DNA of 32,056 bases from Sphaerochaetaceae bacterium. GTDB lineage: Bacteria > Spirochaetota > Spirochaetia > Sphaerochaetales > Sphaerochaetaceae. The notes under the pieces were generated by a model that ran no database searches, was not told where the DNA came from, and was given only the letters and a program-made list of their open reading frames with translations. Shown here piece after piece: positions 2,423 to 32,056 of the stretch. The stretch is taken from NCBI GenBank assembly GCA_028532915.1, contig JAQQAI010000009.1, positions 1-32,056 on the forward strand, read 5' to 3'. Every line of letters begins with the position of its first letter. Within the stretch, counting starts at the first letter, position 1. Made by a program: the position numbers and the translations under genes.

Positions 2423-2435
2423 GTATCTCCCCACC

Positions 2436-3452: not shown

Positions 3453-3480
3453 TACAATCTCCAGTGATATAAAAAGAGAG

Positions 3481-3560
3481 CATCCCGGGATGAAGGCAGA
3501 ATCTCACAAATCATGTGAGAGAAAGCATTTCTGCTGTGAAGAGATGCTCCTTCACAGCAG
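3481..3560 (-). repeat. three inverted repeats between rpiB-like and galM genes
   Basis: Within this 117-nt gap are a perfect 11-bp stem (CTGCTGTGAAG at 3531-3541, CTTCACAGCAG at 3550-3560), a perfect 7-bp stem (TCTCACA at 3502-3508, TGTGAGA at 3514-3520) and the 12-bp palindrome CATCCCGGGATG at 3481-3492. On the minus-strand transcript the last is followed by CTCTCTTTTTAT. They could process the mRNA or partly terminate it so that the epimerase is made at a lower level. Confidence 0.55.
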
Positions 3561-3569
3561 ATTCCATGC

Positions 3570-4052: not shown

Positions 4053-4064
4053 TTCATCATCTCC

Positions 4065-5833: not shown

Positions 5834-5874
5834 CTTTCCTCCAATATTCCTGTTCATTAAAATTTTTTCTATAT

Positions 5875-7332: not shown

Positions 7333-7345
7333 CAATCACTCTCGT

Positions 7346-8233: not shown

Positions 8234-8252
8234 TATCCATACCCTCACATGT

Positions 8253-9359: not shown

Positions 9360-9372
9360 GATAAGAGACTCC

Positions 9373-10797: not shown

Positions 10798-10818
10798 ATG
10801 ACCAACCTCCCATTGTAT

Positions 10819-10866
10819 TACTTACTTTTTCTAAGTAAGTATAACATTGCAATAATAGGTTGTCTA
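10819..10866 (-). promoter_or_regulatory. promoter with perfect ROK-type operator for the aldehyde dehydrogenase operon
   Basis: On the minus strand TAGACA (10866-10861) and TATACT (10843-10838) are 17 nt apart, each one base from consensus. A perfect inverted repeat, TACTTACTT (10819-10827), 5-nt spacer, AAGTAAGTA (10833-10841), overlaps the -10 box and the expected start. This is the best copy of the four repeats and defines the consensus. A repressor bound here would block transcription of the whole run of genes to 2436. Confidence 0.82.
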
Positions 10867-10901
10867 GAATTAGATGGAAAAATTTATCATCTTATCGGGT
10901 T

Positions 10902-12080: not shown

Positions 12081-12150
12081 AGTCCTTTTATGATGTAACC
12101 TAAACTATGTACTAATATCATAATCAGGATTCCATGGTAATCATATCATA

Positions 12151-12181
12151 ATTTTACTTAATAGAAGTAATAATAAGTAAG
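12151..12181 (-). promoter_or_regulatory. ROK-type operator upstream of the repressor gene
   Basis: ATTTTACTT (12151-12159), 5-nt spacer, AAGTAATAA (12165-12173): a perfect 6-bp core (TTACTT/AAGTAA) in the register of the other sites, with 6 and 7 of 9 consensus bases in the arms. A further half-site, AAGTAAG, follows at 12175-12181. TATTAT (12175-12170, minus strand) could be a -10 box but no good -35 lies 17 nt away. The site is about 70-90 nt from the repressor start, consistent with autoregulation. Confidence 0.6.
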
Positions 12182-12233
12182 GTACATTATCAAAGAGATT
12201 TAATCCAGTAACTTTGATCTTCCGGACCATGTC

Positions 12234-12275
12234 GCTCTTTACGGACAAAGAGCCCGGAAAGCACTCTTTCCGGGC
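12234..12275 (-). terminator. terminator hairpin after tctA
   Basis: GCCCGGAAAG (12252-12261), loop CACT, CTTTCCGGGC (12266-12275): a perfect 10-bp stem 35 nt after the tctA stop on the minus strand, followed there by TCTTTG. An alternative smaller stem, CTCTTT/AAAGAG (12234-12252), overlaps it. It separates the transporter operon from the repressor promoter. Confidence 0.7.
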
Positions 12276-12309
12276 CGTTATTCATACATACTGAAAAGCC
12301 CCGAGGCCC

Positions 12310-13851
12310 CTACTTCTCCTCGTGCAGTTCATCAACCTGATCGGCAGCAAGCGTTTCTATCTGCTTATTCATCCGCATGATCAGGATCGTGAAGATGACC
12401 GCAATGATCAGAATCGCACAACTGATCGGTTCTTTAAAGAAGATGAAGATATCATTGTTGTAAACGATCATACTCCGGGTAAAATTATTCTCGACTATCG
12501 GACCGAGAATAAGCCCGAGCATCATCGGGATGACCGAAAAACCGAGAAGTCCAAGAAAATATCCTGCAGCAGCAAGGGGAACGATGAGAATCATCTCCCA
12601 GACATTACCACTGTTGGCGAATGCTCCTGCAAAACAGAACAATGAAATAGCCACTCCAAGATTCTTGTAGGGAATTCTGATTACCTTGGATACCTGTCTG
12701 GTAAAAATTTTCCCGAGAAAATAGAGAAGAATATTACAGATTACCAGACCAAGGATGATCGAATATGTTTCAACAGCCTGTTCGGTGAACAATTTCGGAC
12801 CGGGTTCCATCCCATGCAGGATCAATGCACCCAGAAGTATTGCCGTCACTCCGTCACCGGGAATCCCCAGAGTCAAAAGAGGGATCATAGCTGAACCGAC
12901 CACGGTATTGTTTGATGATTCGGCAGCCGCGATACCTTCAAGAGAACCTTTCCCGAATTTCTCAGGATGACGTGAAGACCGTCTTGCTTCATTGTAACTG
13001 ACAAACTGGGCAACTCCGCCTCCGGCTCCCGGCATTGCACCGATGATCGTTCCGATGCCTGTGGAAACCAGAATCGTCTTGAGAATAGATCTGATTTCCC
13101 GCCTGTTGATGGGAGGGTCTTCTTTCTGGTTGATCGTGAAAGTCTGGCTTTCGGCAGACGCTTTCATCTTTTCCGACCGTTCCTCTACCGTCTTGATCAC
13201 TACCTGTGCAAGGGCTATCAGACCGATAAGTGCCGGAAGAAGGCTGATTCCTCCGAACAGTGCTATCGAATTGAACGTATATCGAAGTGTACCGCTTAAG
13301 GGTTCCAATCCTATACATGCTATAAATATCCCGAAGAACGCCGATATTATCCCCTTAATTATATTATCTCCTGACACTCCGGCAATGACCGTGAGCCCGA
13401 AAATCGCAAGAGAAAAATATTCAGGAGAACGGAATTTCATCGCGACTGCAGCGATAGGAGGTGCAGCGAACAAAAGAATCAGAGCTCCCAGCAATCCCCC
13501 CAGAGAGGAAGAGAACAGACTTGTACTCAATGCCTTATTCGCTTTCCCTTCCTTTGCGAGAGGATAACCATCAAGCGTGGTTGCCAAGGCCGAATTCGTA
13601 CCGGGGGTGTTGATCAGAATAGCACTGATGGAACCTCCGTAACATCCCCCCACATATATTGCAAGCAAAGCAATGATTGAGGTTATTGTTTCCATCCCAT
13701 AAGTCATCGGAAGAAGAAGAATAATCCCGAGTGTCACAGTAAGACCGGGAATACTTCCGATGATCATTCCAAGCAGAACTCCACCGACGGCATAGACAAG
13801 ATTTGTCAGGGTGAACAGCTGCACCACTACTTCAGAAAAAACAGCTCCCAT
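12310..13851 (-). CDS. tctA: tripartite tricarboxylate transporter, large membrane subunit TctA
   Basis: A 513-residue polytopic protein of the TctA family, with about 12 hydrophobic segments. The family's glycine-rich signatures are present: GSIPGLTVTLGI near residue 35, YGGSISAILINTPGT near residue 75, GAMPGAGGGVAQF and LLTLGIPGDG in the second half. It forms the main channel of a sodium-dependent uptake system with TctB and the binding protein TctC. The start is ATG 13851 (GGAGGGG 7 nt upstream), 2 nt after the tctB stop; the longer frame to 13932 overlaps tctB and is unlikely to be used. It belongs to the ROK-controlled transporter operon; imported substrate could be SQ or another sulfonate (inference). 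Confidence 0.93.
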   Translation of the reverse strand: MGAVFSEVVVQLFTLTNLVYAVGGVLLGMIIGSIPGLTVTLGIILLLPMTYGMETITSIIALLAIYVGGCYGGSISAILINTPGTNSALATTLDGYPLAKEGKANKALSTSLFSSSLGGLLGALILLFAAPPIAAVAMKFRSPEYFSLAIFGLTVIAGVSGDNIIKGIISAFFGIFIACIGLEPLSGTLRYTFNSIALFGGISLLPALIGLIALAQVVIKTVEERSEKMKASAESQTFTINQKEDPPINRREIRSILKTILVSTGIGTIIGAMPGAGGGVAQFVSYNEARRSSRHPEKFGKGSLEGIAAAESSNNTVVGSAMIPLLTLGIPGDGVTAILLGALILHGMEPGPKLFTEQAVETYSIILGLVICNILLYFLGKIFTRQVSKVIRIPYKNLGVAISLFCFAGAFANSGNVWEMILIVPLAAAGYFLGLLGFSVIPMMLGLILGPIVENNFTRSMIVYNNDIFIFFKEPISCAILIIAVIFTILIMRMNKQIETLAADQVDELHEEK

Positions 13852-13853
13852 AA

Positions 13854-14309
13854 TCAGCCCCTCCAGAAAGCAGGTAATTGAACGTGAAACACTAACGTGA
13901 ACAACAGATAGATACCAATCGCTAATGCGCACAAAATTACGATCTCAACAATGTTTCTGTTCTTGTATAAACGACTCATCAATACCACAAAAACGAGAGC
14001 TCCGACAACAAAACCGATGAAGTAGATCAGCAGGGCAAACAGTGCGAACAGGCCTATGACAGCTAACGCATATTTCTGATCTTCCCAGCAGACCTCCACT
14101 ATCTTCTCTTTTTTAAACACGACACTCTGAATGATAAGCAAAAGACCTCCGATGATCATGACAATCTCGGCCATAAAAGGTAAAACTTTTGCGCTCTGCA
14201 GAAAATGGATCTTCCCGTAGGTTATTACCTGGGAATTCAAAAGAAGCATCAGTATTGTTCCGAATACAAGAAAGATGATGCCTCCGGCAAGATTACTTCT
14301 AACTTTCAT
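13854..14309 (-). CDS. tctB: tripartite tricarboxylate transporter, small membrane subunit TctB
   Basis: A 151-residue hydrophobic protein with four predicted membrane segments, the usual size and topology of TctB. Two adjacent ATGs (14312 and 14309) are available; 14309 has the better distance from GGAG (5 nt) and starts MKVRSNLAGG, as expected just before the first membrane helix. The reading frame extends further to 14372 but that part shows no supporting ribosome site. It sits 74 nt after tctC and 2 nt before tctA. Sequence conservation in this subunit is always low; the call rests on topology, size and operon position. Confidence 0.88.
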   Translation of the reverse strand: MKVRSNLAGGIIFLVFGTILMLLLNSQVITYGKIHFLQSAKVLPFMAEIVMIIGGLLLIIQSVVFKKEKIVEVCWEDQKYALAVIGLFALFALLIYFIGFVVGALVFVVLMSRLYKNRNIVEIVILCALAIGIYLLFTLVFHVQLPAFWRG

Positions 14310-14383
14310 CATAACTCCATAAATCAAGCAATATGAGAGGGGAACAGACACGCTCCCCTCTCGAAAGAACAATATGTAGAACC

Positions 14384-15382
14384 TTAGTCAATAAGGCCTA
14401 GAGAACGGGCAGAGATCGTCGCATTTTCTGCGGCTTTTTTGATGTGCTCCTGAAGATCCTCACCATAGCACTCGAAAATATTGAGACCGATGCTGGTAGT
14501 GAATTCAGAGAATTCAGGATCGTCCCATACTGTCTTGATCAGATCTTCTACATCCTGGATATATGATTCTTTTGTTCCGGCTGTGACACTCAGCATACCA
14601 CCACCTGTGATGGCACTCTGAGGATATCCCGCATCTGCCACATTAGGAACGACAAGGCCGAGTTCTTCTTCGAATCCGACAAAATCGAAGTCTTTAAAAC
14701 ATGCAATAGCACGGACATCACCGGTCTGCAGGTACTGTTTACCAACCTGAGAGGTCCCTACGAAACAGTCAGCCTCTCCATTCAGGAGTGCAGCGATCTG
14801 CTGAGCTCCACCTTCATAGGAGGCAATCCGGCTCTCACCGCCTGCTTTCTTGATCAATCCGCCGAAGCACAGATGAGCATCAGCTCCTACAGCACCCGCA
14901 GAAAGAACGACTTCTCTTTTTTTCGATTCATCGATCAGGTCCTGCAGATCTTCGTATTTCGAATCTCCTCTCACATAAAGAAGGTACGACCTGTCATCAA
15001 AAGTCCCTACCGGATGAATCTTAGTCAGATCCAGCTGAATCGTGTCACCTTTTACGATCTTCTGATACCAAAGTCCGTAAGATGTGGTGAGCAGCTCTCT
15101 GGTATTGGGTTTTTTCTTCGTAAAATTGATACCTGCAACCAGCCCGTCACCACCTGTCTCCTGAACACATACAATAGGAGCATTCGTGTATTTCGAACCC
15201 ACCTCGGCAAACTTTCTCGCTACAACGTCATGAGTTCCTCCGGCCCCGTAAGGGATGATAATCTTAACTGTTTCATCAAAGAAGTTATCATCAGCGGTCT
15301 CCGATGCTTCAGCTCCTCCCTGAGCGAACACCATCGTAGGAATCAGACAGATCAATAAAGCAAAAACTAATAGTTTTTTCAT
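14384..15382 (-). CDS. tctC: tripartite tricarboxylate transporter binding protein TctC
   Basis: A 332-residue periplasmic binding protein of the TTT (TctC/Bug) family. A signal peptide ends at about MVFA-QGG (residue 20); there is no lipobox. IIIPYGAGGTHDVVAR near residue 42 is the family's first ligand loop (usually PxxPGGxxD), and GEADCFVGTSQ near residue 208 the second. In ordinary family members the first loop reads FAAGGxTD; the His before Asp here may alter specificity. It is the first gene of the tctCBA operon and follows a TTGACA promoter overlapped by the ROK-type operator. Substrate unknown: TTT systems usually bind carboxylates, and some have been linked to sulfonate uptake, so an SQ-type ligand is plausible but unproven. 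Confidence 0.92.
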   Translation of the reverse strand: MKKLLVFALLICLIPTMVFAQGGAEASETADDNFFDETVKIIIPYGAGGTHDVVARKFAEVGSKYTNAPIVCVQETGGDGLVAGINFTKKKPNTRELLTTSYGLWYQKIVKGDTIQLDLTKIHPVGTFDDRSYLLYVRGDSKYEDLQDLIDESKKREVVLSAGAVGADAHLCFGGLIKKAGGESRIASYEGGAQQIAALLNGEADCFVGTSQVGKQYLQTGDVRAIACFKDFDFVGFEEELGLVVPNVADAGYPQSAITGGGMLSVTAGTKESYIQDVEDLIKTVWDDPEFSEFTTSIGLNIFECYGEDLQEHIKKAAENATISARSLGLID

Positions 15383-18223: not shown

Positions 18224-20239
18224 ATGAAAGAGCTAGTAATAATCGGCGGTGTCGCTGCCGGAGCAACTGCGGCAGCACGCGCACGGAGAATCGATAACAA
18301 TGTGAATATAACACTTCTTGAGGCAGGAGCCGATGTCTCATTCGCAAACTGCGGCCTTCCCTACTACATAGGAAAGGACATCGAATACCGCTCCTCTCTC
18401 ATCATGGCGAGTAAAGAGACCTTCGATGAACAGTACAGAGTGAATGTACACACCAATACTCAGGCTCTGTCGGTAGATAGAGAGAAGAAAATCATCACTG
18501 CAGAGAATACGGAGACTGGAGAAAAGCTTAACTTCCCGTATGATGCCCTCATTCTGGCACAGGGAGGCAAACCTGTGGTCCCCCCTCTTCCCGGAGTCGA
18601 TAAAAACCATGTATTTCAGTTATGGACCCTCGATGATATGGACAGAATCGATTCTTTCATCAACGAAAAGAAACCGCAGAAAGCAGTCGTCGTAGGCGGA
18701 GGTTTCATCGGATTGGAGATGGTCGAAGCACTGGTAAAACGGGGTATCGACGTAACTCTAGTCGAGATGGCTTCCCAGGTGATGCCGAACCTTGAAGGGG
18801 AAATCGCAGGATTCATCACCAAGGAACTGCTTGATTATGGTGTCCAGCTCAAATTGAGCAAATCGGTGGATGCGATCGAAGATGACCATGTAGTTCTCAG
18901 TGACGGCTCCTCTGTAGATGCAGATTTCGTGCTGCTCTCAATCGGAGTTAGACCAACACTGCAACTGGCAAAAGATTCAGGATTGGAAATGGGTTCACGG
19001 GGAGGACTGAAAGTATCGGATCGGATGCAGACAAGCGACCCTTCAATCTATGCTGCCGGCGATATGGTAGAGATAACCCACTCGGTTCTCGACAAAACAG
19101 TCCGTATGCCTCTTGCAGGTCCCGCCAACAGACAGGGAAGAATCGTGGCGGAGAATGCTCTGGGTGGAAACCGGACCTACAACGGAGCGATGGGCACTTC
19201 GGTAGTCAAGATCTTCGGCGCAGTTGCCGGATCGACAGGCATGAGCCTGAAGATCGCAAAGGACGCCGGATTCGATGCCGAAGCCGTTGTCGTCCATAAA
19301 TCAAGTCACACATCTTATTATCCCGGATCGGAGAAAGTGAGTCTGATGCTCATCTGGGACAGAAAGAGCGAAAAGGTACTCGGAGCACAGGTTGCAGGAA
19401 GGATCGGAATCGACAAACGTATAGACGTAGTTGCTACCGCGATCGCAGGAGGCCTGACTATACGGGATCTGGAAGAACTCGATCTTGCGTATGCACCGCC
19501 TTTCAACAGCCCCAACGGACCTGTCAACATGGCAGCTTTCACGGCAGTAAACCATCAGACAGACTTCAGTCCATCGATCCTTGCTCAGGACCTCGAGACC
19601 TTCATCAGGGAAAAACAGCCGGTCGTTATCGACCTCAGAGATCCTATCAGCTTCTCGAAGGCAAACCTGAGAGGAAGTAACAACATCAGTCAGAATGACC
19701 TGAGAGACAATTTAGATAAACTACCCGCAGGTCATCCGGTCCTTCTTATCAGCGACGACGGTCAGAAAGGACACGTCGCCCTCAGAATGCTGAAAGGAGC
19801 ACAGGTTGACGATGTATTCAACGTAAGCGGCGGCTTCATCTCGGTCGAACGATATGCACGGGCCATCGGCTACAAACAACTCGATGTCTCGCTGTTCCCG
19901 ATCGAAAAGAAATCAGTCAGCGACCTTGAATCAAAGAATGATGATTCAGTATCTGCCTCTGACGGGAACTCTGTTCAGAAGACTCAGGAAGGACCTCTCA
20001 TCGTCGACGTGAGAACTCCGATGGAATTCGCGATGGGAGCACATCCCAAAGCGATAAACATCGACCTTGACGGCCTTGCCCAATGGGCTCAGACCCTTGA
20101 TGATAAAGACCAGAAGATCATCCTGTACTGCGCTTCGGGAGCCAGATCGAGCTACGGAGTTCGGGTACTCGGTCAACTGGGATTCTCAAATGTTGAAAAC
20201 GGAGGCAGCCTTCACAGCATGATGGCTTCCGGACTGTAA
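18224..20239 (+). CDS. CoA-disulfide/persulfide reductase with two rhodanese domains
   Basis: A 671-residue flavoprotein. The FAD-binding start GGVAAGATAAAR (8-19), active-site Cys43 in SFANCGLPYY, the NAD site VVVGGGFIGLE (about 155-165) and a dimerisation domain to about residue 445 give a CoA-disulfide reductase. Two rhodanese domains follow: the first (about 455-550) has SDDGQKG where the catalytic Cys loop should be and looks inactive; the second (about 590-671) has CASGARSS with Cys636. Relatives reduce CoA disulfide, CoA persulfide or polysulfide with NAD(P)H and so act in redox or sulfane-sulfur handling in the cytoplasm. Single rhodanese fusions are common; the tandem with one dead copy is less so. 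ATG has GAGGAG just upstream. The gene is monocistronic, closed by the hairpin at 20286. Confidence 0.88.
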   Translation: MKELVIIGGVAAGATAAARARRIDNNVNITLLEAGADVSFANCGLPYYIGKDIEYRSSLIMASKETFDEQYRVNVHTNTQALSVDREKKIITAENTETGEKLNFPYDALILAQGGKPVVPPLPGVDKNHVFQLWTLDDMDRIDSFINEKKPQKAVVVGGGFIGLEMVEALVKRGIDVTLVEMASQVMPNLEGEIAGFITKELLDYGVQLKLSKSVDAIEDDHVVLSDGSSVDADFVLLSIGVRPTLQLAKDSGLEMGSRGGLKVSDRMQTSDPSIYAAGDMVEITHSVLDKTVRMPLAGPANRQGRIVAENALGGNRTYNGAMGTSVVKIFGAVAGSTGMSLKIAKDAGFDAEAVVVHKSSHTSYYPGSEKVSLMLIWDRKSEKVLGAQVAGRIGIDKRIDVVATAIAGGLTIRDLEELDLAYAPPFNSPNGPVNMAAFTAVNHQTDFSPSILAQDLETFIREKQPVVIDLRDPISFSKANLRGSNNISQNDLRDNLDKLPAGHPVLLISDDGQKGHVALRMLKGAQVDDVFNVSGGFISVERYARAIGYKQLDVSLFPIEKKSVSDLESKNDDSVSASDGNSVQKTQEGPLIVDVRTPMEFAMGAHPKAINIDLDGLAQWAQTLDDKDQKIILYCASGARSSYGVRVLGQLGFSNVENGGSLHSMMASGL

Positions 20240-20371: not shown

Positions 20372-20430
20372 TTGACAGATGTGATTTTGTGCCACACACT
20401 AAACATACGACGTATGACGTCTTATGTTTA
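20372..20430 (+). promoter_or_regulatory. promoter and 31-bp near-palindromic operator of the second transketolase operon
   Basis: TTGACA at 20372-20377 is a consensus -35; the -10 is poor (CACACT, 20395-20400, 17-nt spacing). From 20400 to 20430 runs TAAACATA-C-GACGT-ATG-ACGTC-T-TATGTTTA, symmetric apart from one base pair and the 3-nt centre. The GT-ATG-AC core is like sites of FadR-type GntR regulators, and such a protein is encoded at the operon's end (27286-27981). Location just downstream of the promoter suits a repressor. Confidence 0.6.
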
Positions 20431-20450: not shown

Positions 20451-21125
20451 GTGAAACATAAAATTGCAGCGATCTACACCGGAGCAGCGTTAGTCAAACC
20501 GCTATCGGACCTCTTGAATGAAATCCTTCCCGGATATCAGGTCATGAATATACTTGATGACAGCATGATTGCAGATATCATCTCTGCCGGAGAACTGACG
20601 AAGGATGTAAAACGCAGACTCTACGGTTACTATGAAATCGCCTGCGCCTCCGGTGCCGAGCTCATTTTGAATACATGCTCGTCCATTGGAGATGCAGTGT
20701 ACGGAGCACGCGAGTTCATGCCTGTCCCGATTGTGAGAATAGACGAAGCAATGAGCCGTAAAGCGATAGAGACAGCTGATTCTATCGCTGTGCTTGCAAC
20801 CTTACCGACGACTCTCGATCCGACGATCAGACTGCTTGAATCATATGCACGTGATAGCGGAAAGAAGATCAGCATAGTCTCAGGACTTGCCGAAGGAGCG
20901 TTCAGCGCGATAACCGCAGGAGACGGAGAGACTCATGACCGTCTTATTTCAGAGACCGCCCAGAAAGTCGCGCTTACATGTGATGTGATTCTTCTTGCAC
21001 AGGGTTCTATGGCAAGAATGGAAGAACCCCTACGACAACTAACAGGAAAAACTGTTTTCTCCAGTCCGCGCACAGGAATCGAAATGGTCAAAGAGATTCT
21101 GGAGGGACAAAATAATGAAAACTGA
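20451..21125 (+). CDS. Asp/Glu racemase-superfamily protein
   Basis: A 224-residue protein of the aspartate/glutamate racemase superfamily. The first catalytic-type cysteine is in NTCSSIGD (Cys76); the second, expected near residue 183, is replaced in LLAQGSM. One-cysteine members are not ordinary two-base racemases and may be lyases, decarboxylases, isomerases or non-catalytic. The start is GTG 20451 with AAGGAG 8 nt upstream; an in-frame ATG at 20424 lies inside the operator palindrome and has no ribosome site. The end overlaps the next gene by 11 nt. As first gene of a transketolase/TRAP/transaldolase operon it probably acts on the imported acid or its product, but no substrate can be named. 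Confidence 0.72.
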   Translation: MKHKIAAIYTGAALVKPLSDLLNEILPGYQVMNILDDSMIADIISAGELTKDVKRRLYGYYEIACASGAELILNTCSSIGDAVYGAREFMPVPIVRIDEAMSRKAIETADSIAVLATLPTTLDPTIRLLESYARDSGKKISIVSGLAEGAFSAITAGDGETHDRLISETAQKVALTCDVILLAQGSMARMEEPLRQLTGKTVFSSPRTGIEMVKEILEGQNNEN

Positions 21126-21939
21126 TATTCAACACCTGAATGATTGTGCCCGTCAGATCAGAAAAGACGTGGTGGAGATGGTTTACCGTTCAAAAGACGG
21201 ACATCCTTCTCCTTCATTTTCTGCCGCGGACATCATCGCCGCCTTGTATTTCCATATCATGAGGGTCGATCCGAAAAACCCTCTCTGGGAAGAAAGAGAT
21301 AGATTCGTGTTATCTAAAGGACATGCCTGTCCCGCTCTCTATGCGGCTCTGGCCAGAAGAGGTTTCTTTCCTCCTGAAGAGCTCACGACTCTGAGATTTC
21401 TTCATTCGAATCTGCAGGGACACCCATATCAGCCTAAAACCAGAGGGCTTGATGCGACGACAGGGTCTCTTGGTAACGGTGTTTCGGTAGCCCTCGGTAT
21501 CGCTCTTGCCGGAAGGATCCGGAAAAAAGAGTATCAGGTGTACGCAATAACAGGTGACGGAGAACTGGGAGAAGGACTGATCTGGGAATCTGCTATGGCG
21601 GCATCCCATCACAAGGTCTCTAATCTTACCGTATTCATAGACAACAACAACTATCAGAGCGGAGGGACTATAGAAGAGATCAGCGGTACATATCCTATCG
21701 ACGAGAAATGGCACTCCTTCGGGTGGCATGTACAATCCATCGATGGTCATGATATCTCTCAGATCCTTGAAGCCGTCGATAACGCCCATCAGGTTTCAGA
21801 CCGCCCTTCGGTGATCATAGCGAAGACGATCAAAGGATATGGACTCTCGTACATGATCGGAGACAACAGCTGGCACAAACGGGTTTATACCGATGAAGAG
21901 TATGCTCAGGCAATGGAAGAACTTGGAGGAAAGGCATGA
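21115..21939 (+). CDS. transketolase N-terminal subunit (second set)
   Basis: A 274-residue ThDP-binding half of a split transketolase. SKDGHPSPSFSAADI at 26-40, SKGHACPAL at 68-76, TTGSLGNGV at 115-123, GDGELGEG at 147-154 and the closing Asn of the ThDP motif in DNNN (176-179) are present. ATG has GGAGG 8 nt upstream. It overlaps the racemase-like gene upstream by 11 nt and the C-terminal subunit by ATGA. It differs clearly from the subunit at 5006-5833 (for instance GHPYQPKTRG versus SHCDRNRTPG before the TTGSLG motif), so this is a separate enzyme and not a recent duplicate. Confidence 0.9.
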   Translation: MKTDIQHLNDCARQIRKDVVEMVYRSKDGHPSPSFSAADIIAALYFHIMRVDPKNPLWEERDRFVLSKGHACPALYAALARRGFFPPEELTTLRFLHSNLQGHPYQPKTRGLDATTGSLGNGVSVALGIALAGRIRKKEYQVYAITGDGELGEGLIWESAMAASHHKVSNLTVFIDNNNYQSGGTIEEISGTYPIDEKWHSFGWHVQSIDGHDISQILEAVDNAHQVSDRPSVIIAKTIKGYGLSYMIGDNSWHKRVYTDEEYAQAMEELGGKA

Positions 21940-22898
21940 AGAAAGTGGTCGACAGCACTCGGGTCGGATTCAGAGACGGACTGATCGAACTCGCAGAAAA
22001 ACGGGAAGATATAGTATTCGTATCGACAGATTCCCTGAAAGTCGTGAAAGGAGAGCCTTTTCTCGAGAAATGGCCAGACAAAGTGATAGAACTGGGTATC
22101 AGCGAACAGAATGGAGTCGGTGTTTGTTCCGGCCTGGCATCAAGCGGATTGATACCGTATATCTGCACTTATGCAGGCTTTCTGACAATGAGAGCCTGTG
22201 AGCAGATGAGGACATTCGTAGCATATCCGAAATTGAAAGTCAGGTTTGTCGGAGCGAACGGTGGTCTGCACGGAGGAAACAGAGAAGGAGTAAGCCACCA
22301 GTTTATCGAAGATATCGGGCTGCTCAGAACGATACCGGGATTCTCTATACTGTGCCCCGCTGACGGGGAACAGGTCAGAAAGGCAATCGTTGCAAGTGTA
22401 GATATCGCCGGTCCCGTCTACATAAGGATTGGAAGCGGAAAAGAGGAAAAAGTATTCGGATCCGATCAGCCTTTCCCTTTAGGGAAGATACGGGTCATGC
22501 AAGACAACGGAAATAAGGTGGCTCTTTTCGCTCACGGATTTGTTCTCAACAGAGTCCTAAAAGCCGCAGAAATACTTGCAGAAAAAGGTATAGGAGCAAA
22601 GGTCGTAGAGGTTGCGACCGTAAAGCCCCTTGATCGGGAAGGTATCAAAGATATTCTCGCCCAGACAGGATGTGCCGTGACCATAGAAGATCATACGATC
22701 ATTGGCGGCCTGGGAAGTGCGATAGCTGAGGTGATAGCGGAAGAATCACCTGCAGTTCTTGCACGACTCGGACTTCAGGACACATACGGAGAATCAGGAT
22801 TCCCCGAAGAGCTGCTGGATGCATATGGAATGTCGGTCGAAAACATCGTCGCCTGTGCAGAATCGGTTATCAGAAAAAAGGAAAAACAACGACAATAG
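21936..22898 (+). CDS. transketolase C-terminal subunit (second set)
   Basis: A 320-residue pyrimidine/C-terminal half of a split transketolase. ELGISEQNGVGV at 52-63 carries the catalytic Glu57, FVGANGGLHGG and EGVSHQFIEDIGLLR follow as in transketolase/DXS-like enzymes, and GLGSAIAEV lies in the C-terminal domain. Start ATG overlaps the preceding stop as ATGA. With its partner it should transfer a two-carbon ketol unit; substrate unknown. It is followed after 39 nt by the TRAP binding protein. Confidence 0.9.
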   Translation: MKKVVDSTRVGFRDGLIELAEKREDIVFVSTDSLKVVKGEPFLEKWPDKVIELGISEQNGVGVCSGLASSGLIPYICTYAGFLTMRACEQMRTFVAYPKLKVRFVGANGGLHGGNREGVSHQFIEDIGLLRTIPGFSILCPADGEQVRKAIVASVDIAGPVYIRIGSGKEEKVFGSDQPFPLGKIRVMQDNGNKVALFAHGFVLNRVLKAAEILAEKGIGAKVVEVATVKPLDREGIKDILAQTGCAVTIEDHTIIGGLGSAIAEVIAEESPAVLARLGLQDTYGESGFPEELLDAYGMSVENIVACAESVIRKKEKQRQ

Positions 22899-22923
22899 TC
22901 GTTTGCTATACATTATAGTATAG
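22889..22923 (+). repeat. tandem small inverted repeats before dctP
   Basis: ACGAC-AATA-GTCGT (22889-22902, spanning the upstream stop codon) and CTATAC-ATTATA-GTATAG (22906-22923) follow each other in the 39-nt gap. They may form mRNA hairpins near the dctP ribosome site; TATAGT within the second could also be a -10 box but lacks a clear -35. Confidence 0.4.
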
Positions 22924-22937
22924 AAAAGGAGTGTTTT

Positions 22938-23960
22938 ATGAAAAAAGGAATGACTGTCTTATTGGTTTTGATTACAGTCTGTTCGTTTGTGTTTGCCGCA
23001 GGGCAGACAGAATCTTCAGGTCCGACCGCTGAAAAGCCTCTGGTCCTCCGTTACGCGCATATGAATGCTGCCAACAGCCCCAACGGACTTCAGGCAGATT
23101 ACTTTGCAAAGAGGATCGCAGAAGAGACAGACGGAGCCATCAAAATCGAAGTGTATCCCGGATCCCAGCTCGGAACTATAACGGAGATGGCAGAGATGGT
23201 CTCTCAGGGAAGTGTGGCACTGCATCATAATACATACGGAGGACTGCAGCCTCTCCTGGAAGATCTCGGTCTGTTTGATACTCCATACCTGTATCGTGAT
23301 GTCGATCATCTTCTGAAAGCAACAAACCCTGACACCTCTCCGGTATTGAAAGAACTGAATGAAGAGCTTATTGAAACAAGAAACGTGAGAATCCTTTATT
23401 CTTTCTACTTCGGAACCAGAAATCTTACAACAAATTCTCCAGTCTATTCGCCGGCTGATCTTTCAGGAAAGAAGATCCGTGCCATACCTTCACCCATCTA
23501 CATGGCAGCAGTCGAAGGGATGGGAGCAGTAGCAGTTCCGGTCGACTGGGCAGAAGTCCCCGTCGCATTGTCTACCGGTGTAGCAAACGGCCAGGAGAAC
23601 CCGGTGAGTGTGCTCGTCTCAAACAATCTGTATGACGTTCAGGATTATCTCATGCTCACAAATCATATCATGGGATCGGAACCGGTTGTGATCAATGAAA
23701 GTGTTTGGCAGAAATTGTCTGATGAGCACAAGGAAATCTTCAGAAACGTCGCTTCTGAAACTCGCGAATGGGCATCGAATTATGTGCTCAACAGTGAAGA
23801 AGCAGATCTTCAGACGCTGGCAGATAAAGGAATGACGATCATAGGACCCGAACAGGGTCTTCAGGTTGATGCATTCAGAGCGTCTGTAGAAAAAATCGTG
23901 GACGACCGCTTCGGAGACAAGTGGGGAGTCTATTACGATCAAATCCGCAGTCTGAAATAG
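22938..23960 (+). CDS. dctP: TRAP transporter solute-binding protein DctP
   Basis: A 340-residue periplasmic binding protein of the TRAP DctP family, with a signal peptide ending near VFAAG. Family landmarks are YFAKRIAEETDGAIKIEVYP early, GTRNLTT (Arg161), KKIRAIPSP (Arg181, the carboxylate-clamping arginine in most members), GMGAVAVPVDWAEV and GVANGQENP (Asn221). The conserved Arg suggests an acidic ligand such as a sugar acid or other carboxylate; a sulfonate is conceivable. ATG has AAAGGAG 8 nt upstream. Its operon neighbours are two transketolase subunits, the TRAP membrane subunits and a transaldolase-like protein. Confidence 0.93.
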   Translation: MKKGMTVLLVLITVCSFVFAAGQTESSGPTAEKPLVLRYAHMNAANSPNGLQADYFAKRIAEETDGAIKIEVYPGSQLGTITEMAEMVSQGSVALHHNTYGGLQPLLEDLGLFDTPYLYRDVDHLLKATNPDTSPVLKELNEELIETRNVRILYSFYFGTRNLTTNSPVYSPADLSGKKIRAIPSPIYMAAVEGMGAVAVPVDWAEVPVALSTGVANGQENPVSVLVSNNLYDVQDYLMLTNHIMGSEPVVINESVWQKLSDEHKEIFRNVASETREWASNYVLNSEEADLQTLADKGMTIIGPEQGLQVDAFRASVEKIVDDRFGDKWGVYYDQIRSLK

Positions 23961-23978
23961 CCGAAAAAGAAAAACATT

Positions 23979-24018
23979 CCGGAAGGCCGTGATCGGTTCC
24001 TCTGATCACGGCATCCGG
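23979..24018 (+). repeat. stable intercistronic hairpin between dctP and dctQ
   Basis: GCCGTGATC (23986-23994) pairs with GATCACGGC (24004-24012), and CCGGA (23979-23983) pairs with TCCGG (24014-24018) across a small internal bulge, giving a stem of about 14 bp. Hairpins here commonly stabilise the upstream message so that the binding protein is made in excess of the membrane subunits. Confidence 0.7.
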
Positions 24019-24037
24019 TTTATCTGGAGAACCTTAC

Positions 24038-24514
24038 ATGCAAAATATCATTAAAAAGACCAGCAGGATATTAGAGACGGTGTCTTTAATATTTCTGATC
24101 CTCCTGTTCGGATGCGTTCTGACTCAGATTATCATGAGGAACTTTTTCAACAGCGGATCTGTCATCATAGAAGAGCTTGCCCGATATAGTCTCGTTTCTC
24201 TTGTATTTCTTATGATCCCGGTACTGATTGTTGATAAGCAGCATATCATCGTAGATCTTGTCACTTCACGGCTCCCGAAGAAACTGCAATGGATATTCGA
24301 ACTGCTTGGTGAAGGATGTTCATTTCTTATGGCGTTGTTCCTTCTTCTTTCAGTCAATCAGGTTCTCTCAAAAAACTGGAGCGTGAAGACTCCTGCGATG
24401 AGAATGCCCAATTACATCATGTATATCCCGATTGTCATCGGTATCGCGTTTACAGCCGTTGCCGCATTGTCTTTCATCATCACACTGCTCAAGAACGGAG
24501 GTAATACAAAATGA
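24038..24514 (+). CDS. dctQ: TRAP transporter small membrane subunit DctQ
   Basis: A 158-residue protein with four hydrophobic segments, matching DctQ in size and topology. MRNFFNSGSVIIEELARYSLV in the first third is the typical DctQ block (RxxFxxxxxxxEELxRxxL). It overlaps dctM by ATGA and should form the stable DctQM membrane complex. ATG lies 77 nt after dctP, behind the hairpin; GGAG is about 9 nt upstream. Confidence 0.92.
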   Translation: MQNIIKKTSRILETVSLIFLILLFGCVLTQIIMRNFFNSGSVIIEELARYSLVSLVFLMIPVLIVDKQHIIVDLVTSRLPKKLQWIFELLGEGCSFLMALFLLLSVNQVLSKNWSVKTPAMRMPNYIMYIPIVIGIAFTAVAALSFIITLLKNGGNTK

Positions 24515-25791
24515 GCGGAACAATAATCATCCTGCTGTTTCTTACATGTATTCTTGCGGGTCTTCCGATCGCTTTCAGCATGAGTCTACCTGCCGCCTTA
24601 TATCTGATAATCAATAATATCCCGGTGAGCGTGATGGTGCAGAGAATGGTGGCGAGTTTGAATTCGTTTCCGCTTCTTGCAGTCCCTCTGTTCATCCTTG
24701 CTGCAGGACTCATGAACAATTCAGGGATCACGAGCCGCCTGTTCGAGTTCTCGAAGTTACTGGTAGGACGCCTGAAGGGGGGACTGGCCCAGGTCAATAT
24801 CGTCGCATCTCTGATCTTTGCCGGGATCAGCGGCGCAGCTCTTGCAGACGTCGGAGGTTTGGGGAATATCGAAATAGATGCAATGGAAAAACAGAATTAT
24901 CCGAAGGAGGATTCTGCGGCGATAACAGCCGCTTCAGCTGTTGTCGGACCAATCTTCCCTCCCAGTATTCCCCTGATAATCTACGGCTCGGCTGCAGAAA
25001 CCTCGGCAATGCGTCTTCTCATCGCAGGAATACTCCCGGCTCTCATCATTGTTGCTCTTCTTATGCTTCAGGTGGGATTCTTCGCCAGAAGAAAGAATTA
25101 TCCGAAAGGGGTCGTCGGAAAATATACCCTAAAAGAAGTGTTTACCATCATCCGGCGGGGAGGCCCTGCAATGCTCATGCCTATTATGCTCATGGTCGGC
25201 ATGCTCAGCGGATATTTCTCTCCCACCGAAGTCGGGGCGATCACTGTAACCTATGCACTTATTCTGAGCGCGATATATAAAGAACTCAGCCTGAAAGGAT
25301 TGATCAAAGTTCTGAAAGAAACTCTGCGTTCTACCGTCAGCGTTCTTTTCATCGTCGCTTCTGCCGCGATCTTTGCATGGATCCTCACAGTGGAACAACT
25401 GCCTCAGCATGTTTCGAATCTGATGCTGACGGTCTCCTCAAGTCCATATGTTCTGCTTCTGATAGCAAACATCGTCCTGCTGATTACGGGAATGTTCATC
25501 GAGACGACGGCAGCTATCATGGTTCTTACTCCGATTCTGCTGCCTCCTTTAGTGGCTGCCGGTGTAAGCCCCATCCATTTCGGGGTGGTCATGGTTCTGA
25601 ACCTGATGATAGGAATGATCTCACCTCCGGTAGGAATGAGCGTCTATATGCTGTCTCCTATCGTAAAACTGCCCGTAGAAAAGATCTTCAAAGCTGTCGC
25701 ACCATACTTCATAACACTGCTTCTTGCTTTGATCATCGTCACATATTTACCACAGATAAGTCTTTTGCTTCCGAATGCAATGTTTAATTGA
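24511..25791 (+). CDS. dctM: TRAP transporter large membrane subunit DctM
   Basis: A 426-residue DctM protein with about 12 membrane segments. FAGISGAALADVGGLGNIEI (about residues 107-126), GPIFPPSIPLIIYG, GYFSPTEVGAITVTYA, MFIETTAAIMVLTPILLP and LMIGMISPPVGMSVYML are the family's characteristic segments, including the ligand/sodium site loops. It is the transport subunit of the sodium-driven TRAP system with DctP and DctQ. Start overlaps dctQ by 4 nt; the transaldolase-like gene follows 17 nt later. Confidence 0.95.
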   Translation: MSGTIIILLFLTCILAGLPIAFSMSLPAALYLIINNIPVSVMVQRMVASLNSFPLLAVPLFILAAGLMNNSGITSRLFEFSKLLVGRLKGGLAQVNIVASLIFAGISGAALADVGGLGNIEIDAMEKQNYPKEDSAAITAASAVVGPIFPPSIPLIIYGSAAETSAMRLLIAGILPALIIVALLMLQVGFFARRKNYPKGVVGKYTLKEVFTIIRRGGPAMLMPIMLMVGMLSGYFSPTEVGAITVTYALILSAIYKELSLKGLIKVLKETLRSTVSVLFIVASAAIFAWILTVEQLPQHVSNLMLTVSSSPYVLLLIANIVLLITGMFIETTAAIMVLTPILLPPLVAAGVSPIHFGVVMVLNLMIGMISPPVGMSVYMLSPIVKLPVEKIFKAVAPYFITLLLALIIVTYLPQISLLLPNAMFN

Positions 25792-25808
25792 ACAAAAGGA
25801 GAACCCTC

Positions 25809-26858
25809 ATGTATAACACCGGATATTTCCAACGCGTAAAAAAAACCACAGCGACACGATTCTGGATTAACAATCCCACAATCGAAGATGCAGTGAAAGC
25901 CATCGAAGCAGGTGCCGTCGGTTGTACGACAAACCCGAGCTATGTTTCCAAACTGTTGAAATCTCCCTCCGACAGAGCTTATGTGACACGAACTATCAGA
26001 CTTCTGTCTCCGTATATCGAAGATAATTCAGAACTTGCCGCGATGGTACAAAGAATCATGGTGAGCAGACTCAGTGATCTGTTTATGCCCATGTACGAAA
26101 GCAGTGAAGGAAGATACGGGTTTGTTACAATACAAAGCAACCCCTACCATGAAGAAGATGCATCCGCCATCATTGCGGATGGTATCGAGAACCGTAAGAT
26201 AGGTGATAACATCATGGTGAAAATTCCTGTGACCGCATACGGTATCGAAGCGATCAGAACTCTCGCAGGAAAAGGGACACCCACTATGGCCACCGAGGTC
26301 ATGAGTCTTTCACAGGCTATTTCAATTGCTGAAGCCTATCGTGAGACGACGCAGGAACTGAAAGAACAGCCTCCGTTCTTCCTTACACATATCACCGGGA
26401 TTCTGGATGATCATTTCAAACGGGTAATAAGGAACGAGAATATTCAGATCTCTGATGAAGCAGTGCGCGCTGCCGGATTATCGATCGCGAAGAAACAGTA
26501 CAAATTACTCAAAGAACGAAACTATCCCGGAACAATGATCGGCGGCGGCGCAAGGAAACTCGAGGACTTCACGGAACTTGTCGGCGGAGATCTTCATATA
26601 ACGATCAACTGGAAAGGGACCGCAGAAACGCTGATCGAACAGGATATGGATGTCGTGTCGAGAATTGACGACATCCCTGAAGATTCGATCATCGCGGAAC
26701 TGAAAGAGAAACTCTCCGATTATAGAAGAGCATACGCCGAAGACGGCATGAAAGAAAGTGAATATTATGATTTCGGAGGAGTAGAACTGTTCCGTTCCTC
26801 ATTTGTGAAGGGATGGGATGTTCTGGTCGAATACATCAAAAAGGTAAGGAGACAGTAA
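25809..26858 (+). CDS. divergent transaldolase-family protein
   Basis: A 349-residue class I aldolase of the transaldolase family. CTTNPS at 39-44 and the Schiff-base lysine in VKIPVTAYG (Lys138) are in place. Two usual catalytic features differ: the Asp of the first strand (FLD/FID) appears as Asn21 in WINN, and the SPFVGRxDD segment is THITGILDD at 193-201, losing the phosphate-binding Arg. It could therefore work on a substrate without that phosphate or with altered proton transfer (inference). ATG 25809 has AAGGAG 8 nt upstream; the frame also opens at 25788 inside dctM but without a ribosome site. It overlaps the cupin gene by one base (TAATG). With the transketolase it suggests carbon-skeleton exchange on the TRAP-imported compound. 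Confidence 0.82.
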   Translation: MYNTGYFQRVKKTTATRFWINNPTIEDAVKAIEAGAVGCTTNPSYVSKLLKSPSDRAYVTRTIRLLSPYIEDNSELAAMVQRIMVSRLSDLFMPMYESSEGRYGFVTIQSNPYHEEDASAIIADGIENRKIGDNIMVKIPVTAYGIEAIRTLAGKGTPTMATEVMSLSQAISIAEAYRETTQELKEQPPFFLTHITGILDDHFKRVIRNENIQISDEAVRAAGLSIAKKQYKLLKERNYPGTMIGGGARKLEDFTELVGGDLHITINWKGTAETLIEQDMDVVSRIDDIPEDSIIAELKEKLSDYRRAYAEDGMKESEYYDFGGVELFRSSFVKGWDVLVEYIKKVRRQ

Positions 26859-27202
26859 TGAGTTCAGATCATAAGCATAGAGGGAATCTGGCTGCAGATC
26901 CCAAAATAGAGAGAGCACCGGGTATACAAAGGGTGACATTGACATATGATAAAGATACGATGATGTGTTATTTCTATCTGGAAAAAGGATCGACTCTCGA
27001 GATGCATACTCACGTTCAGTCCCAGAACGGAATCGTGATGAAAGGCCGCATAAACTTCATCAAGGGGAACGGTGATATTCTGGAACTGAAAGCTGGTGAT
27101 GCCTACTATTTTGCCTCAGATGATCCGCATGGGTCGCAGGTCCTTGAAGATACCGAACTGCTCGAGTGTTTCACTCCCTGCAGAGAAGATTACATCGATT
27201 GA
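26858..27202 (+). CDS. small cupin-domain protein
   Basis: A 114-residue single-domain cupin. The first cupin motif is EMHTHVQSQNGIVMKGRINF (about 45-65), with two His and a Gln in place of the frequent Glu, and the second is DAYYFASDDPHGSQVL near 80-95 with the third His. A bound divalent metal is likely. Such small cupins serve as sugar isomerases/epimerases, dioxygenases or ligand sensors; nothing here decides between these. The start overlaps the transaldolase stop (TAATG), with AAGGAG upstream, so it is translationally coupled and probably acts on the same pathway. Confidence 0.8.
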   Translation: MSSDHKHRGNLAADPKIERAPGIQRVTLTYDKDTMMCYFYLEKGSTLEMHTHVQSQNGIVMKGRINFIKGNGDILELKAGDAYYFASDDPHGSQVLEDTELLECFTPCREDYID

Positions 27203-27285: not shown

Positions 27286-27981
27286 TTGAATGAGTTATTC
27301 ACCGTAGCAGAAAGAAGATTATCATCTGTTGAAATCGTGGTTGAGAAAATCAAAGAGCTGCTCATCCGGCAGAGCCTGAAACCGGGTGATATGATTCCCA
27401 GCGAGACTGTGCTGGCCGAAAATCTGAAAGTAGGCAGAGGTTCGGTGCGTGAAGCGATCAAAATTCTTTCTGCATACGGAGTACTCGAAATCAGGCGCGG
27501 ATCAGGAACCTTCGTCGCGACAGCATCGAACAAGAAACTTTTCGATGCCCATCTGTATCAGATTCTGGTCCAGGAGCGTGACTATGAATCTCTCACACAG
27601 GTAAGACAGCTACTTGAAGAAGGAATCGTCCGTCTTGTCATTGAACATGCTAGCGATGAGGACCTCAAGGTACTTGACCGAACCATGAACAGTTTTCTCA
27701 AAGAACTGAGAAGCGACCAGGTCAGCTTTGAGAAAGCGAATGAATACGATATCGAGTATCATCATCAGCTTGGCAACCTGACGCACAATCCTATCATCGA
27801 AAGGATATATGACTTCGTCATCGAATTGTTCACCCCGACAATCAATCCCATCCACGCGGGAGTATATGAAGCACATGAATCTTTGCACAATGCAGTCATG
27901 AACAGGAATATCGATGAGGCGATCTTATGTGTTCATACTCATACAGATATCTGGGTGCAGTCGCACCTGGACAAATTCTGA
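27286..27981 (+). CDS. GntR-family regulator, FadR/FCD subfamily
   Basis: A 231-residue regulator. The N-terminal winged helix (about 10-78) has IKELLIRQSLKPGDMIPSE, the recognition region GRGSVREAIKILSAYGVLEI and the wing RRGSGTFV. The C-terminal FCD domain (about 90-225) shows the metal/ligand-type pattern with Asp in EYDIEYHHQL and His in EAHESLHNAV and CVHTHTDI. FCD regulators typically sense small acids or sugar acids, which agrees with a TRAP-imported substrate. The start is TTG at 27286 with AGGAG 9 nt upstream; the ATG at 27290 is out of frame. Probably the repressor of the 20451-27202 operon through the palindrome at 20400-20430. Confidence 0.9.
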   Translation: MNELFTVAERRLSSVEIVVEKIKELLIRQSLKPGDMIPSETVLAENLKVGRGSVREAIKILSAYGVLEIRRGSGTFVATASNKKLFDAHLYQILVQERDYESLTQVRQLLEEGIVRLVIEHASDEDLKVLDRTMNSFLKELRSDQVSFEKANEYDIEYHHQLGNLTHNPIIERIYDFVIELFTPTINPIHAGVYEAHESLHNAVMNRNIDEAILCVHTHTDIWVQSHLDKF

Positions 27982-29956: not shown

Positions 29957-30877
29957 ATGAAAATTACACGATCAAAGATAATCACATTATTTCTGCTCGC
30001 TGCGGTCTCAGTATCCCTGTTCGCAGCGGGAGAGATCGAGAGTACTGAAACAGGAAAGACAAAAGTAGCTGTATCGATCGCTCCTCAGGCATTCGCTGTA
30101 AGCCGTGTGGCAGGAGACCTCGTCGAAGTCATAACCCTCGTAGGTCCCGGACAGTCGCCCCATAACTATGAGACAACCCCGCGCCAGATGGCGGACCTGG
30201 CCGAATCGGAGGCATGGTTTCTCAGCGGAACCGATTTCGAAAATGCTCTGGTTCCTAAAGTTACGGCACTGTATCCAGATCTGCCGGTAATCGACACCAC
30301 AGAAGGAGTCACATTCAGAATGATGGATGAACACAGCCATGAGGATGAACATGAAGACGAGCATAGCCACGAAGATGAGCATGATATGGTCTACGATAAG
30401 CACACATGGCTATCGAAAGATCCCTACATCATCCAGGTCAACCACATCGCTGACACTCTGTCTGCCATTGATGCCGAAAATGCTTCAGTGTATAAGGAAA
30501 ATGCTGCAGAGTTTATTACAGAGATCGAACAGCTGTTCGCTCAGCTCAGAAAAGATCTTGCACCCCTTTCAGGGTCAACTGTGTTCGTCTATCATCCCGC
30601 CTTCGGATACTTCCTTGATGAGTTCAACATCAGCCAGGAAGCTGTCGAAACAGGAGGTAAGGAACCAACTGCCAAGACTCTCGCCGCACTGATCGAAGAG
30701 GCTCAGGAAGAAGAGGTGAAAGCTATCTTCGTGCAGGAACAGTTCCCCAAAGAAGCTGCAAAAAGTGTTGCCGATGCCGTGGGAGCACAGGTACTGTCAC
30801 TTGATTCGCTTGCATATGACTGGCTTGAGAATATCAGGAAAATGGGAGATACTTTAATTGAAGCAAGCAGATTATAA
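29957..30877 (+). CDS. znuA: zinc/manganese ABC transporter binding protein ZnuA
   Basis: A 306-residue cluster 9 metal-binding protein. The signal peptide ends near LFAAG. Metal ligands expected in the family are His69 (SPHNYE), His149 (KHTWLS) and His213 (YHPAFGYF), with an acidic residue near LDSLA toward the C-terminus. Between the first two lies a His/Asp/Glu-rich loop (residues about 124-143, repeating HEDEH), characteristic of zinc-binding ZnuA proteins rather than manganese ones. It is the first gene of a znuACB operon behind the inverted repeat at 29895-29919. Confidence 0.93.
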   Translation: MKITRSKIITLFLLAAVSVSLFAAGEIESTETGKTKVAVSIAPQAFAVSRVAGDLVEVITLVGPGQSPHNYETTPRQMADLAESEAWFLSGTDFENALVPKVTALYPDLPVIDTTEGVTFRMMDEHSHEDEHEDEHSHEDEHDMVYDKHTWLSKDPYIIQVNHIADTLSAIDAENASVYKENAAEFITEIEQLFAQLRKDLAPLSGSTVFVYHPAFGYFLDEFNISQEAVETGGKEPTAKTLAALIEEAQEEEVKAIFVQEQFPKEAAKSVADAVGAQVLSLDSLAYDWLENIRKMGDTLIEASRL

Positions 30878-30889
30878 AGGAAGTATGCA

Positions 30890-31693
30890 GTGCACCCGTT
30901 ACCGGTAAAACAACCCAGCGGGAAAATCGTTCTTGAATTTTCCCGCGTCTCTTTTTCCTACCCTTCTTCAAAAGTCCTTTCGGACACATCCTTTCATATC
31001 CATGAAGGAGAGTTCGTATCCCTTCTCGGACCGAACGGAGCCGGAAAGAGCACGATACTGAAGCTTCTGCTGGGCCTGGAAATCCCTGAGAGAGGAGAGA
31101 TCAGACTCTTCGGAACCTCGGCCACAGAGGGAAAGAAGTATCTCGGATATGTACCTCAATATGCGAATTTCGATTCCGCTTTCCCCATCTCTGTCTACGA
31201 GGTGGTAAGAATGGGATGTGTCACTCCATGGAAGTTTCACTACTCAAAAGAAGATAGAGAGAGGATAGATGAGGCTCTCTCTCTTATGGATGTTCACAAC
31301 CTGTCATCCCGCCCCTATTATGCACTCTCCGGAGGACAGAGGCGGAGAGTCCTGGTCGCCAGAGCCCTCGCTTCCCGACCGAAGATGCTCATTCTCGATG
31401 AACCGACAGCCAACATGGACGCTCTGAGTGAAAGGAATTTCTATGAGGCACTGAGCAAGATCAAAGGTGACACGACTATCTTCATCGTGACGCATGATAC
31501 CACATACGTCTCAGCTCTGACCGACAGGGTCCTGTGTGTCGGAGAACATCCTGAGAACGGCATGATCTCTAATGTCGTCCAGCATCCCCTTGCAGCAGCA
31601 GAAGAGGAGAGTGAATCCTCAATTCTCAAAGTACTGCACAGTTCGAAGATCAGTCACAGCTGTGAATGCATAACAGGAGCACATCATGAGTAA
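30890..31693 (+). CDS. znuC: zinc ABC transporter ATPase ZnuC
   Basis: A 267-residue ABC ATPase with Walker A GPNGAGKST (47-55), signature LSGGQRRR, Walker B MLILDEPTANMD and switch His in FIVTHD. It energises the transporter formed with ZnuA and ZnuB. The start is GTG 30890 with AAGGAAG 7 nt upstream; the ATG at 30885 is in another frame. A C-terminal extension after the nucleotide-binding domain ends with a short Cys/His-rich stretch (HSCECITGAHHE), which might bind metal (inference). It overlaps znuB by 8 nt (ATGAGTAA). Confidence 0.93.
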   Translation: MHPLPVKQPSGKIVLEFSRVSFSYPSSKVLSDTSFHIHEGEFVSLLGPNGAGKSTILKLLLGLEIPERGEIRLFGTSATEGKKYLGYVPQYANFDSAFPISVYEVVRMGCVTPWKFHYSKEDRERIDEALSLMDVHNLSSRPYYALSGGQRRRVLVARALASRPKMLILDEPTANMDALSERNFYEALSKIKGDTTIFIVTHDTTYVSALTDRVLCVGEHPENGMISNVVQHPLAAAEEESESSILKVLHSSKISHSCECITGAHHE

Positions 31694-32056
31694 TTTTCTT
31701 CAGGCGCTGTTCAATCCGAACATGCCGTTCATTCGCAATGCACTGATAGCCGGACTGCTGTCTTCGGTTCTTTTCGGAGTCCTGGGGACCATAGTTACAG
31801 TAAAAAGAATTGCTTCTCTCGCAGGAGCGATCTCCCATGCGGTCCTTGGAGGAATCGGACTGGCTCTCTATTTCAATGCGACAGGTATTCTGCCGTTCAT
31901 GCCTCCAATTGCGGGAGCGATCATATTCGCTGTGATTGCTGCGCTTATCATAGCGATGGTCTCTTTGAAGGCGAAGGGAAGAAATGATACCGTCATCAAC
32001 GCAATCTGGGCTATTGGTATGAGTATCGGTGTCGTCAGTATGGCAAAGACACCGGG
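31686..32056 (+). CDS. znuB: zinc ABC transporter permease ZnuB, partial
   Basis: The first 123 codons of a cluster 9 ABC permease, cut by the right edge. ATG 31686 overlaps the znuC stop. NALIAGLLSSVLFGVLGTIV, a membrane segment, is followed by KRIASLAGAISHAVLGGIGLA, the family's conserved ISHAVLxGxxLA block, and by NDTVINAIWAIGMSIGV. It should form the membrane pore for zinc (or manganese) uptake with ZnuA and ZnuC. Confidence 0.93.
   Translation, partial: MSNFLQALFNPNMPFIRNALIAGLLSSVLFGVLGTIVTVKRIASLAGAISHAVLGGIGLALYFNATGILPFMPPIAGAIIFAVIAALIIAMVSLKAKGRNDTVINAIWAIGMSIGVVSMAKTP

Follow-up and report, generated by a model that had tools for sequence, protein, structure and literature searches.

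An operon on the plus strand of the window, at positions 20451 to 27202, probably belongs to a catabolic system in which a racemase-fold protein (RAC) makes an acid of the type HOCH2-CO-C(OH)(R)-COOH, which is cleaved without a kinase in spirochaetes. Aceric acid is a tentative candidate for the specific substrate. The window is the whole stretch of DNA that was analyzed, 32,056 nucleotides of contig C9 within a 2.64-Mb draft assembly, and has its relatives among the Sphaerochaetaceae and other spirochaetes. The gene set, its conservation, the residue signatures and the neighborhoods can be read directly from the sequences, whereas the proposed reactions and substrate are drawn from sequence, gene neighborhood and fold. 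No operon of such composition was found described in the open-licence literature, in line with the earlier note on this DNA, which had called the combination unrecognised.

The genes named in that note are all present on the plus strand and are as tightly packed as it had described, with operon genes that overlap or lie no more than 77 bases apart and a GntR regulator after them, but the structural genes number eight rather than seven. RAC (20451 to 21125; PF01177, E 3.7e-17) is a predicted isomerase with the Asp/Glu/hydantoin racemase fold. It precedes the two chains of a split transketolase, the N-terminal, ThDP-binding chain TKN (21115 to 21939; PF00456, E 3e-55) and the C-terminal chain TKC (21936 to 22898; PF02779/PF02780). 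The TRAP transporter consists of the solute-binding protein DctP (22938 to 23960; PF03480, E 2.6e-63), the small permease DctQ (24038 to 24514; PF04290) and the large permease DctM (24511 to 25791; PF06808, E 1.3e-115). TAL, a divergent transaldolase/FSA-fold protein (25788 to 26858; PF00923, E 2.8e-23), has its likelier start at the ATG at 25809, and its stop is overlapped by the start of a KdgF-like cupin (26858 to 27202; phmmer to KdgF 5fpz/5fpx, E about 1.6e-9). The GntR/FCD-family regulator (27286 to 27981; PF00392 and PF07729) begins with TTG. For RAC, the previously proposed GTG at 20451 is the most likely start, with AGGAG just upstream; the reading frame can be extended to an ATG at 20424.

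A 31-bp palindrome, TAAACATACGACGTATGACGTCTTATGTTTA, lies at 20400 to 20430 with a TTGACA-like box just upstream. It is the only such site in the genome when up to three mismatches are allowed, and some relatives (e.g., L034, L035, L073 and L046) have palindromes of related sequence 5' of RAC. The palindrome is a probable operator for the adjacent GntR regulator, and a single promoter for the whole operon is plausible. The closest solved structures to DctP are of the DctP/SiaP type. The GxKIR motif is retained in relatives, and Arg181 is a candidate carboxylate-binding residue.

Comparison of genome neighborhoods, which the earlier note had suggested, showed the gene set to be shared by at least 18 spirochaete genomes, mostly in the same order; the arrangement is therefore not due to chance. 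The order RAC-TKN-TKC-DctP-DctQ-DctM-TAL-cupin-GntR was kept in most of the related loci fetched, and other members of the family and class encode TAL homologues with 59 to 71% identity. In L048 and L049 the TAL-cupin-GntR part is transcribed divergently, and in L046 and L058 the gene set is present in diverged form. An aldo/keto reductase gene lies within or beside several copies. Genes flanking the spirochaete operons (gyrase, pseudouridine synthase, photolyase and similar) gave no clue to the substrate.

RAC falls within the Asp/Glu racemase superfamily (63.2 bits against a PF01177 cut-off of 31). Its AlphaFold model has a pLDDT of 94.7 and matches aspartate racemases (3s81) with VIA Z 23. 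The protein had been described as a one-cysteine racemase-fold protein; it contains three cysteines, of which just one is invariant. This residue (Cys85 when numbering begins at the ATG at 20424, Cys76 when it begins at the GTG) was conserved in 89/89 homologues. The second cysteine site of two-base racemases was Gln in all 89, with no Cys nearby, a count that is influenced by the use of part of the second-site motif as a search pattern. Across 84,980 species genomes, at least 565 candidate relatives were confirmed, of which 80 were retained; the survey patterns force conservation of AQGSMARM or ATLPTTL, and the sample is biased accordingly. We know of no sugar isomerase with the Asp/Glu racemase fold.

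The transketolase carries an inserted Arg (Arg116 of TKC) in the loop G-N-R-E-G-V-S-H-Q. This Arg directly precedes the acidic residue aligned with Asp424 of human transketolase, a substrate-loop residue, which is now Glu. In the same alignment, human His416 is replaced by Asn and Ser345 by Val or Ala (Asn and Val in the window), both positions belonging to the phosphate pocket of the human enzyme. The signature of inserted Arg, Asp to Glu and His to Asn was found in 14/14 operon transketolases, which are mutually related and thus represent one family signature rather than 14 independent events, and in none of 11 other transketolases. The 14 include a Limnochordia homologue and the enzyme of a second operon in L058, and the 11 include the sulfo-transketolase of the window.

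The operon is not a pentose-phosphate set, as judged from its sequences. The transketolase loop reads G[NE]REGV[ST]HQ as opposed to the canonical GE-DGxSHQ, and TAL scored 65.3 bits with its best NCBIfam model against an equivalog cut-off of 367. A full-length transketolase is encoded elsewhere in the genome, on C92. With divergent enzymes here and that enzyme elsewhere, the standard set, which the earlier note had named as its own refutation, does not apply. The genome contains about ten matches to the transketolase N-terminal chain, mostly split enzymes, suggesting that split transketolases have diversified in it. A truncated transketolase pyrimidine-domain fragment lies on the minus strand at the left contig edge (2 to 169).

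TAL belongs to the PF00923 transaldolase/FSA fold (83.1 bits, cut-off 27), and its Lys145, the probable Schiff-base Lys, was invariant in 21 sequences. In a profile alignment to solved transaldolases, the catalytic Asp and Glu of transaldolase correspond to Asn28 and Gln116 of TAL, and Arg181, at the phosphate-Arg position, is not conserved across paralogues. Paralogues of TAL (about 40 to 45% identity) are encoded beside genes for 3-oxo-tetronate kinase (OtnK) and decarboxylase (OtnC). In L052, of the same genus (6034 to 9029), the paralogue directly follows genes for 3-oxo-tetronate kinase and 3-oxo-tetronate-4-phosphate decarboxylase, both above cut-off, and the paralogue locus in L060 likewise has a 3-oxo-tetronate kinase above cut-off. 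Because of these neighbors, TAL is suggested to yield 3-oxo-tetronate; neither gene is present in the window operon. In L055 (234 to 10756), a TAL paralogue, a RuBisCO-like protein and a split transketolase are encoded in one operon; the related operons of L051 and L054 add lactonase, Ldh_2, SDR, fucose-isomerase-like and creatininase genes. KdgF, an enzyme of 4,5-unsaturated uronates, is among the closest characterized relatives of the operon cupin, but the operon encodes no KduI/KduD, lyase or unsaturated-uronate enzymes, and KdgF function is not implied by the sequence. A KduI-type unsaturated-uronate route was rejected: KduI/KduD are absent, and its diketo intermediate would lack the C4 hydroxyl needed by an aldolase. 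The roles of TAL and the cupin are weakly constrained.

RAC defines the system, which the earlier note did not see, and other phyla use other back ends, probably on the same intermediate. In Paenibacillus, Bacteroidales and Anaerolineae, RAC homologues occur with a kinase and a RuBisCO-like protein or with a kinase and a beta-keto-acid cleavage enzyme (BKACE). Within 9 kb of RAC, the kinase, the RuBisCO-like protein and a 574-aa protein were found together at 33 loci among the matches listed, and kinase plus BKACE at at least 16 loci; the spirochaete set has the transketolase. The closest NCBIfam models of the RuBisCO-like protein and the kinase are OiaX and OiaK, which are 3-oxoisoapionate-phosphate decarboxylase and 3-oxoisoapionate kinase, respectively. 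The matches are full-length and below the equivalog cut-offs (498 and 457 of 700 bits for the OiaK/OiaX relatives). A Bacillota locus, L084, has the order GntR-RAC-DctP-DctQ-DctM-BKACE-kinase, with RAC 55% and DctP 59% identical to those of the window, the latter in a frameshifted reading frame. On the RAC tree, a quick tree with several long branches, the three back ends clustered yet swapped repeatedly, with transketolase loci on both sides; the BKACE loci L093 and L112 nest amid RuBisCO-like loci and retain a GH127-like gene. The simplest common factor, we infer, is one RAC intermediate that is consumed differently by lineage.

The 574-aa protein matched no Pfam family; its predicted fold, with a mean pLDDT of only 56.7, matches GH127 in 10/10 top hits. 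RAC lies next to GH127-fold glycosidases in both Paenibacillus and Anaerolineae, with GH127 itself in two Anaerolineae. L079, a Treponema with the same operon, has GH127 and GH78 upstream, GH127 lying 8.5 kb off. GH127 is patchy among operon carriers (10/23), and its presence was for that reason not made a requirement. The window's genome contains neither GH127 nor RuBisCO-like proteins, and its one DUF1537 kinase gene is partial and lies at the end of a contig. Lacking GH127, it could only scavenge free acid.

In the proposed pathway, the TRAP transporter would import a free sugar acid, and RAC, with one catalytic Cys, would isomerize this aldose acid to the keto acid HOCH2-CO-C(OH)(R)-COOH. 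Two points favor this intermediate: it would be the substrate of the OiaK/OiaX relatives, and the transketolase carries an extra Arg near its own substrate. In the loci inspected, no dehydrogenase was recognized on the stretch from RAC to the kinase; for those of the RuBisCO type, this argues that RAC is an isomerase acting on a sugar that is already an acid. The unphosphorylated keto acid would then be cleaved by the Arg-bearing transketolase together with the transaldolase-fold enzyme, which would transfer two- or three-carbon units to a sugar phosphate, e.g., glyceraldehyde-3-phosphate. Carbon would thus enter in the form of xylulose-5-phosphate or fructose-6-phosphate, with no need for a kinase. 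We give kinase-free cleavage of an acid of this class an even chance. There is a real tension in that Val and Asn at the Ser345 and His416 positions sit uneasily with a phosphorylated acceptor.

Aceric acid (3-C-carboxy-5-deoxy-L-xylose) is a rare sugar of pectin. It is favored as the known polysaccharide sugar that fits the class of the intermediate. One GH127, BT1003, hydrolyzes aceric acid from rhamnogalacturonan-II (PMC5698469), and this, together with the GH127-fold enzymes next to RAC in several lineages, makes aceric acid the leading candidate. The open-licence literature yielded no description of its catabolism, only of its hydrolytic release. With aceric acid, TAL may release acetaldehyde and leave 3-oxo-tetronate, from which the transketolase would give glyoxylate; equally possibly, the transketolase would yield 3-hydroxy-2-oxobutanoate directly. 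Against aceric acid, most characterized GH127s are beta-L-arabinofuranosidases, GH127 is absent from the window's genome, and RAC was found in just 2/201 Bacteroidaceae genomes, although this family includes an aceric acid releaser. The complete scheme, in which RAC is a new single-Cys racemase-fold sugar-acid isomerase of aceric acid catabolism and its product is used by three lineage-specific back ends (kinase and RuBisCO-like decarboxylase, kinase and BKACE, or kinase-free transketolase/transaldolase), is possible but on balance doubtful. If right, it would bring carboxylated sugars, alongside sulfonated ones, within kinase-free transketolase catabolism, give a function to a widespread uncharacterized racemase-fold family, offer a way in which aceric acid could be consumed and make the Arg insertion a marker of transketolase specificity.

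A linear C4 acid is a rather unlikely substrate. RAC would turn a C4 aldehyde acid or 2-oxo acid into 3-oxo-tetronate (HOCH2-CO-CHOH-COOH), from which the transketolase would produce glyoxylate and xylulose-5-phosphate. The pair would be the exact carboxylate counterpart of SqwI/SqwGH in sulfo-TK. The TAL paralogues beside OtnK/OtnC agree with this, and an Arg by C3/C4 would suit a C4 carboxylate too, but the OiaK/OiaX relatives and GH127-fold enzymes by RAC homologues point to a branched acid that is freed from a polysaccharide. The same relatives favor apiose-derived acids, processed by an apionate/3-oxoisoapionate pathway in which the transketolase would give hydroxypyruvate and xylulose-5-phosphate. 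Next to its diverged operon, L058 has a twin operon (1487 to 7054; GntR-DctM-DctQ-DctP-PGDH_C/KARI_N dehydrogenase-TKC-TKN) with the same Arg signature, in which the dehydrogenase takes the place of RAC, TAL and the cupin. This architecture is presumably that of D-apionate oxidoisomerase, and the twin operon is possibly an apionate-type pathway. For the window operon, however, this pathway is distinctly unlikely: oxidoisomerase, lactonase and dehydrogenase are absent, the OiaK/OiaX relatives fall well below cut-offs, and no specific apionate-enzyme model matched the L058 dehydrogenase. The D-apiose branch through 3-oxoisoapionate (ApnO, OiaK, OiaX) shares with the system the full-length OiaK/OiaX relatives and the chemical class of the predicted intermediate, but the ApnO-type oxidoisomerase and the OiaK/OiaX equivalogs, i.e., the kinase and the RuBisCO-like protein, are missing from the window operon.

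RAC might instead decarboxylate without a cofactor, as a one-Cys mirror image of arylmalonate decarboxylase, and leave a ketose to be shared by transketolase and transaldolase, but this is improbable. The single Cys at the first racemase site with Gln at the second, and arylmalonate decarboxylase among the structural matches of RAC, would fit such a role. Next to the homologues, however, the OiaX-like decarboxylase would be redundant, and the transketolase Arg would be left without a carboxylate to bind. A second sulfonated-sugar route is very improbable, even with a sulfo-TK-like cluster adjacent in the genome and a known bifurcated transketolase/transaldolase sulfoglycolysis (PMC11659671). 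The signature loop is unlike that of the window's sulfo-transketolase, no sulfonate enzymes were identified in the orthologous operons inspected, and the partners of RAC elsewhere are of the carboxylate type. Of the second transketolase-based route that had been suggested for a sugar acid or sulfonate, the sugar acid thus fits the divergent enzymes and the separate full-length transketolase, while the sulfonate lacks support, the loop being different and the RAC neighborhoods pointing to a carboxylated plant-derived sugar.

Sulfo-TK is a precedent for kinase-free cleavage (PMC12890257, PMC11659671). Sulfo-TK (SqwGH, SqwI and SqvD, also in a bifurcated variant) and the scheme proposed here, in which RAC supplies the carboxylated substrate, share a split transketolase, an unphosphorylated acidic ketose, transfer of units to glyceraldehyde-3-phosphate and an isomerase that acts ahead of the transketolase. 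The window operon differs in TRAP uptake, the racemase-fold protein instead of SqvD- and RpiB-type isomerases, the active-site loop, the cupin and the absence of sulfonate enzymes. The SqvD-type isomerase and RpiB-type SqwI are present in the sulfo-TK-like cluster at 387 to 15382. This cluster comprises a fucose-isomerase-like protein, DUF4867, aldose epimerase, RpiB, a split transketolase, a DASS transporter, a SucCD-like ligase, an aldehyde dehydrogenase, a ROK regulator and TctABC, and resembles the sulfoacetate-forming variant of sulfo-TK. Between this cluster and the RAC operon, a CoA-disulfide-reductase-like flavoprotein with two rhodanese domains is encoded at 18224 to 20239. Downstream, genes at 29957 to 32054 for a solute-binding protein with a His/Asp/Glu-rich stretch, an ABC ATPase and a permease, judged by sequence, probably encode a zinc/manganese importer.
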